From: Candidatus Eiseniibacteriota bacterium
GTDB taxonomy: Bacteria > Eisenbacteria > RBG-16-71-46
Length of the DNA: 64,000 bases
Direction of reading: 5' to 3'
Assembly (NCBI GenBank): GCA_016178725.1
Contig: JACOSV010000007.1
Span: 1 to 64,000, forward strand
Notes under the pieces: model-generated
The model's database searches: none
What the model was told of the DNA's origin: nothing
What the model saw: only the letters and a program-made list of their open reading frames with translations
Translations under genes and position numbers: made by a program
Shown: positions 11,716 to 14,872 of the stretch, in pieces
How positions within the stretch are numbered: position 1 is the stretch's first letter
Layout: each line of letters starts with the position of its first letter

Positions 11716-12261
11716 TCAGACGGTCACCTCGCGCAGCTGTGCGCCGATCGCGTCGAGCAGCGTGCGCACGGTGCGATCCACGACGCGATCGCCGATGCGC
11801 ACCAGCGCGCCTCCCATCACGGCCGGCTCGACCTCGGCCGTGAGCTTCACCTTCGAGCCCGTGTAGCGCTCGAGCGCCGCGAGCAGTCGCGTGCGCTCGC
11901 CGGCGGCGAGCGGCGTCGCGCTGACGACGTGGGCGCGGCGAATGCCCTCGGCGCGCTCGACCAGCGCCTCGTAGTCCGAGACGATCGGATCGAGCAGATC
12001 GAGGCGCTTCTTGCGCAGGAGGAGATCCACGAACACCGCGACCGAGCGCGCGGCACGGCCGTCGAGCGCCGAGGCCAGCACCTTGCGCTTGTCGGGCAAC
12101 CGCACCTGCGGCGAGGCGAGGAACGACGCGGCCGGAGTGCCCGGCGCCAGCAGGTCGCGAACGCTCTTCAGATCGCCGAGCGCCGCGACGGTCTCGCGCC
12201 GCCGCTCGGTGATGATGAACAGCGCCTGGGCGTAGCGCCCGGCGACCGTCAGGTCCTTCAC
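11716..12261 (-). CDS. atpH: F1Fo ATP synthase subunit delta
   Basis: VAGRYAQALF N-terminus; VMGGALVRIGDRVVDRTVRTLLDAIGAQL C-terminus; operon position. Confidence 0.93.
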   Translation of the reverse strand: MKDLTVAGRYAQALFIITERRRETVAALGDLKSVRDLLAPGTPAASFLASPQVRLPDKRKVLASALDGRAARSVAVFVDLLLRKKRLDLLDPIVSDYEALVERAEGIRRAHVVSATPLAAGERTRLLAALERYTGSKVKLTAEVEPAVMGGALVRIGDRVVDRTVRTLLDAIGAQLREVTV

Positions 12262-12746
12262 CGCGCGGCCTCCACCTCGTCGATGAACTCGCCGACCATC
12301 TTGCGTTGCGCCGCGTCGTCGAGTTTCGTGCGCAGGATCTTCTCTGCGGCGCGGATCGAGAGCGTGATGACCTGGCCCTTGACGATCTCCTTCGCCCTCT
12401 CGCCCTCGCGAGCGATCTCGTCGGCGGCGCGTTCCAGCCGTGCCGCCGCCTCCGTCTGCGCCTGCGCCTTGATCTCGGCGGCGACCTTCTGCCCCTCGAC
12501 CACCGCGTCGCCGATCTTCTGCCGCGCCTGCGCTTCGATGCCGCGCAGCTCGGCGTCGTACTTCGCCTTGAGCTCGAGCGCCTCGGCCTTGCGGCGGTCG
12601 GCCTCCTTGAACTCGCCGGCGATCTTCTCGCGCCGCGCCTCGAGCATGCCGAGCATCGGCCCCCAGGCGTAGCGGCGCAGCGCCCAGAACAGGAGCAGGA
12701 AGCCCAGGATCTGGGTGAGCACCAGCCGGATGTCGATCAGATTCAT
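12258..12746 (-). CDS. atpF: F1Fo ATP synthase subunit b
   Basis: N-terminal TM followed by long charged helix; overlaps atpH by 4 nt. Confidence 0.93.
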   Translation of the reverse strand: MNLIDIRLVLTQILGFLLLFWALRRYAWGPMLGMLEARREKIAGEFKEADRRKAEALELKAKYDAELRGIEAQARQKIGDAVVEGQKVAAEIKAQAQTEAAARLERAADEIAREGERAKEIVKGQVITLSIRAAEKILRTKLDDAAQRKMVGEFIDEVEAAR

Positions 12747-12791: not shown

Positions 12792-13031
12792 TTAGCCGAT
12801 CTGGCCACGGAGCAGGATCATCGTGACGAACGCGTAGATCGTGAGCGCTTCGGCGAGCGCCGCGATGATGATCATCGCGAGCTGGATCTTCGCGGTCGCT
12901 TCCGGCTGACGCCCGATCGCCTGCATGGCGCCGTTGCCGATGCCGCCGAGACCGATGCCCGAGCCGATCGCCGCGAGTCCGATGCCGACCGGGAGGCCCC
13001 ATCCGAGTGCTGCGTGGAAATCCATTGTCAT
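12792..13031 (-). CDS. atpE: F1Fo ATP synthase subunit c
   Basis: 79 aa, GSGIGLGGIGNGAMQAIGRQPEA loop and IIAALAEALTIYAFV second helix. Confidence 0.95.
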   Translation of the reverse strand: MTMDFHAALGWGLPVGIGLAAIGSGIGLGGIGNGAMQAIGRQPEATAKIQLAMIIIAALAEALTIYAFVTMILLRGQIG

Positions 13032-13044
13032 CCTCCTTGCCTGT

Positions 13045-14394
13045 TCAGTGAGCGTGCTGCGCGTGCGCCTCCCCCTCGTGCCCGTGATCGTCGTGCGGCA
13101 GCATGAGGAGGAGGTAGATCGAAGTCAGAATCGAGAACACGCCCGCCTGGAGCACACTGCTCAAGAGGGCGAGGGCGAAGAACGGGAAGTGCAGCGGAAT
13201 GCCGATCGAGAACCGGGTGAACGGGACGCCGACCACGACCATCGACGCGAACGCGACCAGCAGCATGTCCTCGCCGAACACGTTGCCGAAGAGTCGGCAC
13301 GAGAGCGAGATCGGCTTGGCGAGCTCGCCCATGATGTGGATCGGGAGCATGAGCGGCACCAGGAACCAGCCGATCGCGGTGCGCGGCGAGCCCGCCATGT
13401 GGTCGAGCCAGCCGAGGAGCCCGAGCTCGCGGAAGCCGACGTACTGCGCGTAGACGAACACGATCAGCGCGAGCGCCACCGTGACGTTGAGGCTCGAGGT
13501 CGGCGAGTCCATCAAGGGGATCAGGCCGAACAGGTTCATCGCCAGGATGTAGATGAACAGCGTGCCGAGGAACGGCACGAAGCGCGGGCCGTGCCTGGGG
13601 CCGAGGATACCGGTGAAGAAGTCGCTCAACGCCTCGACCGCCATCTCGGCGCCGTTCTGGAGCGGGCCCGGAATCATCTGCGGATTGCGCGACGCGAACC
13701 ACGCGACGAGGCAGAGCAGGAGCGCGATCCCGAGCGAGAAGACCAGCACTTCGTAGTGGTGGAGGAAGCCGACGAGCGGCGCGTGGGGCGCGAGGCGGTG
13801 GAGCACGGTGATGACGTTGGGGAACTTCTGCGGCCCGGATTCCTCGGCCTCGCCGGACCTGGCGGCTTCGTGCGCGCCGGCGCCACCGCGCACGGCGCCC
13901 GCGAGCGATTCGGTGTGCGCCGCGCCGTGGCGCTCGCCGGCGGCGCGACCCGCGACGACCCACAGACCGGCGATCAGCACGACCACCGCCGCGGCCGCGA
14001 TCCACGGGCTCTTCGTCAACCTCCGCCACGCGGCGGAGGGGAGCAGCAGGAGCGCCGTCGCCTTGAGCACCATCACCACGAACGGAATGCCGAAGCCGAT
14101 CGCGAGCAGCGCGGGCGAGAGACGCGTGAGCATGAGCCAGCCGGCGGCGAACAGCGCGAGCAGGCCGCCGATCGCGGCGATCGCGCGCCACGTGGCGGGC
14201 ATCGTGCGCCGGTCGGCGCCGGTCAGCGCGACGATCAGGCCCTGGAGCAGAGCGAGGTTGATCAGCGACCACGCCGCGCCCGCGGCGAGCGCCAGGCCGG
14301 CGAGCGGCGCGGCATAGGTGGCCATGACCAGCGCGGCGACCGTCGCGACCCACAGTGACGACGAGCGAACCCGGGCGAGGAACTCGAGACCCAT
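13045..14394 (-). CDS. atpB: F1Fo ATP synthase subunit a with N-terminal AtpI-like domain (apparent fusion)
   Basis: C-terminal part has ELAKPISLSCRLFGNVFGEDMLL and other AtpB motifs; N-terminal ~125 aa is a 4-TM AtpI-like segment (GAAWSLINLALLQGLIVALTG ... LSPALLAIGFGIPFVVMVLKATALLLL). Confidence 0.9.
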   Translation of the reverse strand: MGLEFLARVRSSSLWVATVAALVMATYAAPLAGLALAAGAAWSLINLALLQGLIVALTGADRRTMPATWRAIAAIGGLLALFAAGWLMLTRLSPALLAIGFGIPFVVMVLKATALLLLPSAAWRRLTKSPWIAAAAVVVLIAGLWVVAGRAAGERHGAAHTESLAGAVRGGAGAHEAARSGEAEESGPQKFPNVITVLHRLAPHAPLVGFLHHYEVLVFSLGIALLLCLVAWFASRNPQMIPGPLQNGAEMAVEALSDFFTGILGPRHGPRFVPFLGTLFIYILAMNLFGLIPLMDSPTSSLNVTVALALIVFVYAQYVGFRELGLLGWLDHMAGSPRTAIGWFLVPLMLPIHIMGELAKPISLSCRLFGNVFGEDMLLVAFASMVVVGVPFTRFSIGIPLHFPFFALALLSSVLQAGVFSILTSIYLLLMLPHDDHGHEGEAHAQHAH

Positions 14395-14410: not shown

Positions 14411-14686
14411 TCAGCGGCGCTTGCTCTCCTCTCGGTCGTCCGCCTGATAGCGGCGGTAGATCAGCCAGGTCTCGCGGCCGGCGGCGGCGAACCCGAGGAC
14501 GAGTCCGACGATGCCCAGCCATGGGGAGGTGCGCAGCCGGCCGTCGAGCCAGCTTCCGGCGAAGAAACCGACCAGCGGCGAGACGATCAGCAGGGTCGGG
14601 ATCGCGAGCAGCAATCCCGCGGTCCGGATCGTTTCTCCGGGCGATTTGTCCTGCGGCGGAGGCGCCAGAAACCCTCCGTGAAACAT
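14411..14686 (-). CDS. atpZ: AtpZ/AtpI-type F0F1-ATPase accessory protein
   Basis: 91 aa, 2 TM; GLLLAIPTLLIVSPLVGFFAGSWLDGRLRTSPWLGIVGLVLGFAAAGRETW; first gene of atp operon. Confidence 0.78.
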   Translation of the reverse strand: MFHGGFLAPPPQDKSPGETIRTAGLLLAIPTLLIVSPLVGFFAGSWLDGRLRTSPWLGIVGLVLGFAAAGRETWLIYRRYQADDREESKRR

Positions 14687-14740
14687 TTCACAAGCAATCG
14701 CCAACCGACGATGCCTCAACGGGTGACATGAAGCCGGGGG

Positions 14741-14769
14741 AAGATACGGAAAGGTCCGCGAACGGTCAA
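14741..14769 (-). promoter_or_regulatory. atp operon promoter TTGACC-17-TATCTT
   Basis: Minus strand TTGACC (14769-14764), 17-nt spacer, TATCTT (14746-14741); 54 nt upstream of the atpZ ATG. Confidence 0.7.
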
Positions 14770-14872
14770 CCCGAAAGTCCTGTGCTTCGGACGGCCCGGG
14801 GCGCAGGAGCGGCAGGCTCATACGGGCGGACCAGTTGCCCGACCCCAAGGCCCGACCCTATTCTGCCGCCCC

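Follow-up and report, generated by a model that had tools for sequence, protein, structure and literature searches.

The ATP synthase operon of the window, by which we mean the whole 64,000-nucleotide stretch of DNA analysed, carries one long reading frame at the place of atpI and atpB. This locus raises the question of whether AtpI and subunit a are made there as a single protein and, if so, how the two are joined and whether the product stays in one piece. The exact role and the stoichiometry of AtpI are poorly understood. Passages of PMC8904574 (citing Brandt 2013) and of PMC4154653 describe it as a c-ring assembly factor.

Two proteins in one reading frame

An earlier note, made from the DNA letters, had taken this frame for an AtpI-AtpB fusion behind atpZ. 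The 449-residue ORF was real, with exactly the coordinates given there, on the minus strand, and its frame was intact (Table 1). The position assigned to the AtpI part was also confirmed, as a PF09527 gene lies upstream of the fused ORF and atpE and the genes after it lie downstream. The real start of the AtpZ-type gene is probably downstream of the longest-ORF start. The genes after atpE and atpF are, from reading of their translations, presumably atpH, atpA, atpG, and atpD.

Table 1. Coordinates of the fused ORF, its parts, and the neighbouring genes in the window
Feature	Position	Strand	Basis
Fused atpI-atpB ORF, 449 aa	13045..14394	(-)	ATG start, no internal stop; fused in 18/18 readable family genomes
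AtpI moiety, residues 1-125, four TM helices	14020..14394	(-)	Separate-AtpI HMM, profile-profile comparison, AlphaFold2
TM5, residues 130-152, apparent counterpart of the subunit a signal peptide in unfused relatives	13939..14007	(-)	
Ala/His/Glu-rich linker, putatively extracytoplasmic, residues 153-200 (155-187 predicted disordered)	13795..13938	(-)	
Subunit a, residues 201-449, including invariant Arg367	13048..13794	(-)	PF00119 at residues 218-428, invariant columns, fold match
AtpZ-type gene, upstream	14411..14848	(-)	PF09527 (ATPase_gene1), 44 bits; longest ORF
atpE, subunit c, 79 aa, immediately downstream of the fused ORF	12792..13031	(-)	PF00137
atpF, subunit b	12258..12746	(-)	PF00430

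The C-terminal part was assigned by a Pfam search of the window protein, in which residues 218-428 matched ATP-synt_A (PF00119) with an E-value of 5.6e-51. In the alignment of subunit a sequences, Arg367 falls within the invariant R-L-x-x-N block, so that both the essential arginine of the proton path and the PF00119 domain are present. The C-terminal part of the AlphaFold2 model matched solved subunit a structures in a fold comparison. The protein thus shares the full fold and the invariant arginine with known subunit a (AtpB, PF00119; long forms such as NCBIfam NF009953), and its relatives include long forms whose extended N-terminus bears a signal-peptide-like segment. Unlike these, it has an extra four-helix AtpI domain ahead of that segment, which would now be an internal helix. 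A single AtpB was found in the window genome, and no second copy was seen there. Three other genomes of the class contain second, divergent copies of subunit a with 31-35% identity to the window protein (G009:C68, G038:C78, and G045:C817), which perhaps belong to an alternative ATPase.

The N-terminal part was compared with free-standing AtpI. When an HMM was built from free-standing AtpI ORFs adjoining atpB in relatives, and from no other sequences, it matched residues 1-124 at 56.5 bits along almost the entire model; this HMM matched 74 ORFs, none of them outside the AtpI set. When the profile of 17 N-terminal parts of the window family (f1) was aligned with that of 13 separate AtpI proteins, the match extended over 126 columns with a probability of 99.6% and an E-value of 8.8e-24, whereas reversed and column-shuffled controls reached at most 2.7%. 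In the AlphaFold2 model, this part forms four helices (residues 2-27, 30-58, 65-91, and 94-117), mostly with pLDDT above 85, as a domain and not as a free protein. Judged by these profile matches, which bear out the proposed AtpI-AtpB fusion, residues 1-125 are a homologue of AtpI.

The Pfam model of AtpI (ATP-synt_I, PF03899), which the earlier note had suggested as a check on residues 1-125, gave no match to the window protein even at an E-value of 10. In genome-wide searches, it exceeded the curated cut-off at the position of the fused frame in one member of the window family (G004, 25.1 bits) and in G027, G030, G033, and G035, with scores of up to 29.9 bits. Whole-protein scans of fused relatives gave 20.7-24.4 bits versus 25.1, just below the cut-off, and G004, G030, G033, and G035 rescanned as whole proteins with hmmscan (without G027) likewise gave 20.9-24.4 bits. 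The AtpI score of a fused chlamydial protein (L041) was also just under the cut-off in whole-protein hmmscan, and L042, L101, and L031 showed no AtpI match in the whole-protein Pfam scan. Because the free-standing AtpI proteins of the class also mostly score 17-24 bits, below the cut-off, PF03899 appears to be insensitive in this group, and with its negative result for the window protein, the AtpI assignment rests on relatives. The same model found no match elsewhere in the window genome (3.07 Mb, 89% complete), in keeping with the claim that no separate atpI exists. Comparison of the N-terminal part with the single E. coli AtpI by hhalign gave no signal, the two being too divergent, and no significant relatives of the AtpI part were found in the PDB.

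Compared with AtpI/UncI (PF03899), the N-terminal part has the same four transmembrane helices, the same gene place just before atpB, and profile homology to free-standing AtpI of the same class. It differs in being fused to subunit a, in lacking the TM3 lysine throughout the window family, and in being missed by PF03899 in the window protein. As a separate observation, residues 6-57 of E. coli AtpI (L115:2561-2941) showed a weak sequence match (E 0.018) to VMA21, a V-ATPase assembly factor, in PDB entry 8eau, chain p; this match is possibly due to chance, though it is functionally suggestive.

The joint and the fate of the chain

The AlphaFold2 model of the whole protein (mean pLDDT 80) consists of four helices (residues 2-117), a long helix starting at residue 130, a region of disorder at residues 155-187, and the subunit a fold. 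The four-helix N-terminal part described in the earlier note was therefore retained, but the note had missed the fifth helix (about residues 130-152) ahead of subunit a. Read by eye, unfused subunit a proteins of f6, f7, f10, and f11 start with a signal-peptide-like segment, in a set in which contig ends truncate f7 and some others. These segments end in AWA/S, LMA/Q, AHA/A, AGA/E, and similar sequences, and the fused proteins have TM5 at the corresponding position. In a fused protein of another phylum (G087, L101), NF009953, the NCBIfam model of long-form subunit A, aligned from profile position 3 at residue 139, within the segment equivalent to TM5. Taken together, the signal-like segments at the position of TM5 and the NF009953 alignment suggest that the joint consists of AtpI, the former signal peptide, and subunit a; TM5 looks like the former signal peptide of subunit a.

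We consider it probable that the locus encodes a one-chain preprotein in which AtpI, an internal former signal helix, and subunit a are inserted as a unit, and which may be cut in many members and perhaps remains joined in the window lineage. The single chain would comprise the four AtpI helices with both ends inside the cell, TM5, an extracytoplasmic disordered linker, and subunit a, an arrangement deduced from the established topology and from basic residues preceding TM5. Since AtpI ends inside the cell and a subunit a of this type starts outside, the fifth helix would make the topology work. Insertion as one unit would fix AtpI and subunit a at a ratio of 1:1 and would bring AtpI, as chaperone of the c-ring, to the point at which subunit a enters the membrane and Fo is assembled. 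Cutting by signal peptidase I after TM5 would, in many members, release AtpI and a normal mature subunit a, and in the window lineage, which has a degenerate site, the chain may stay joined.

The motif AxA[QED] was present within 14 residues of the TM5 core in 12 of the 29 fused proteins, compared with 3.8-3.9 expected from shuffled linkers, in a count whose +1 residue was added after the data had been seen and whose sequences are related. The motif was rarer further along the linker (12/319, 6/370, and 3/304 positions). In G004 of the window family, the site reads ANA/QE. Plain AxA was not enriched (17/29 fused proteins versus 15.9 expected) because the linkers are rich in alanine. Signal peptidase I is present in the window genome. 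These results give about an even chance that signal peptidase I cuts the chain after TM5 in many members. The strict AxA[QED] motif was absent in the window protein and five close relatives (0/6), and the window joint, VVAGRAAGERHG, has weak cleavage candidates at best, such as AAG/E. Since the site is degenerate and the TM3 lysine of AtpI is lost in the window's nearest relatives, permanent tethering appears equally as possible as cutting in that lineage.

Alternatively, the chain may never be cut, so that AtpI remains next to subunit a and forms a constitutive component of the Fo stator. The degenerate site after TM5 in the window and its closest relatives (0/6, as above) is consistent with this, as is the purifying selection on the AtpI part, which resembles that on subunit a; on the other hand, the counterpart of TM5 is signal-peptide-like in unfused relatives, a cleavage-like site is kept in many fused members, and the cited passages of PMC8904574 and PMC4154653 describe AtpI as a c-ring assembly factor. 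We rate this explanation as possible, somewhat short of an even chance. It is doubtful, and we propose it only tentatively, that AtpI in the window family is now a fourth membrane component of Fo, permanent and stoichiometric, and covalently bound into the stator through subunit a after loss of the signal-peptidase site; if true, an assembly chaperone would have turned into a structural subunit. An uncut chain would mean that AtpI is able to sit in the finished enzyme, and a cut one would add to the bioenergetic preproteins of the cytochrome b/c1 kind.

The preferred reading, a one-chain preprotein, resembles FbcH of Bradyrhizobium, the cytochrome b/c1 preprotein, in which two membrane subunits are made as one chain joined by the signal sequence of the second. 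In both cases, two membrane subunits of one energy-converting complex form a single chain with a signal-sequence joint; cleavage is established for FbcH, whereas for AtpI-AtpB it is predicted. CGL160, a plastid AtpI relative with an added N-terminal domain (PMC9806626), similarly combines an AtpI-type membrane domain with another ATP synthase assembly module, but the partner in CGL160 is a soluble CF1-recruiting domain and not subunit a.

Constraint on the AtpI part and the start of subunit a

Compared with the same-genus genome G001, the AtpI part differed by 0.22/0.12/0.38 at codon positions 1, 2, and 3, and the subunit a part by 0.25/0.12/0.36. This pattern indicates purifying selection on both parts in the fused frame. 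The linker differed by 0.33/0.38/0.38, showing no codon-position constraint. By this codon pattern, the AtpI part is translated and constrained and the linker is free. The counts assigned to f1 together with this codon-position analysis also took in sequences of f10 and f11.

The lysine of TM3 was absent from all 17 f1 proteins in the alignment, which have glycine or alanine instead (glycine in the window). It was present in 27 of the 29 other sequences, the exceptions being G021 of f3, in which a misaligned stretch contains a lysine, and a distant outgroup. All but one of the aligned free-standing AtpI proteins have it, as do the other fused groups, with that of G021 in the misaligned stretch. 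The loss of this residue suggests that f1 changed AtpI itself. It might be supposed that in f1 the AtpI part survives as a relic or has taken on another role, chiefly anchoring subunit a in the membrane and leading its insertion. The absence of a lysine conserved elsewhere from every f1 protein speaks for such a decay, but the AtpI part keeps the purifying codon pattern and retains other AtpI positions, namely the glycine and asparagine of TM2 and the Gly-Phe and lysine of TM4, and we regard the decay as unlikely.

The earlier note had named internal initiation as an observation that would undo the fusion. The open frame would then be incidental, and subunit a would be made from a start just before TM5. 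In the window, a TTG lies six codons ahead of the TM5 core, and TM4 contains an ATG and a GTG with weak Shine-Dalgarno pairing. However, G002, G021, and G028 lack any ATG, GTG, or TTG over the roughly 40 codons that precede the TM5 core, and the frame across the joint is uninterrupted in all 18 family members. Comparison of the fused relatives revealed neither a conserved start nor a conserved Shine-Dalgarno sequence before TM5. From these sequences, an internal start for subunit a appears unlikely, and we give very little credence to the idea that the open frame is incidental.

Distribution and repeated origin of the fusion

AtpI and subunit a lie in one frame in every f1 genome with a readable junction (18/18). 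In the same class, they are also fused in f5 (7 genomes), f9 (3), and f3 (1), and in f2, f6, f8, f10, and f11, atpI and atpB are separate and overlap or adjoin each other. The comparison with related genomes that the earlier note had called for thus found the closest relatives fused, all in the same frame and with no indel at the junction, and separate genes in other families. That an assembly or sequencing error merged two genes is refuted: the window genome is fragmented (88 contigs), but many relatives share the fused frame at 50-67% identity, among them named Candidatus Eisenbacteria MAGs that come from several sampling projects, and it recurs in other phyla.

Among the Chlamydiae, L041 (1947-3131) and L042 (5593-6765) are fused through a short joint, in which 31-36 residues separate the two domain matches and an AxA[QED] site is absent; L040 and L044 have subunit a with no AtpI match nearby. 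In another phylum, G058, G087, and G088 are fused, and their relatives G089 and G091-G093 have the two parts in separate frames. On the subunit a tree, a quick single-gene tree in which some branches are long and several rows come from short contigs, the fused label required six changes, three of which were forced by strongly supported branches. This tree suggests that the fusion arose several times, with at least three changes of state. No previous report of an AtpI-AtpB fusion was found in the literature searched, whose coverage lay largely outside subscription journals. The recurrent fusion would mean that the cell can produce and insert AtpI and subunit a together in a 1:1 ratio, narrowing the place of AtpI in Fo assembly, and the repeated joining of the two would provide a natural test of the role of AtpI.

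In L028 (around 1893-1896) and L055 (around 2973-2976), atpI and atpB share a reading frame in which a single TGA stop separates them, a gene order that is one point mutation short of fusion.
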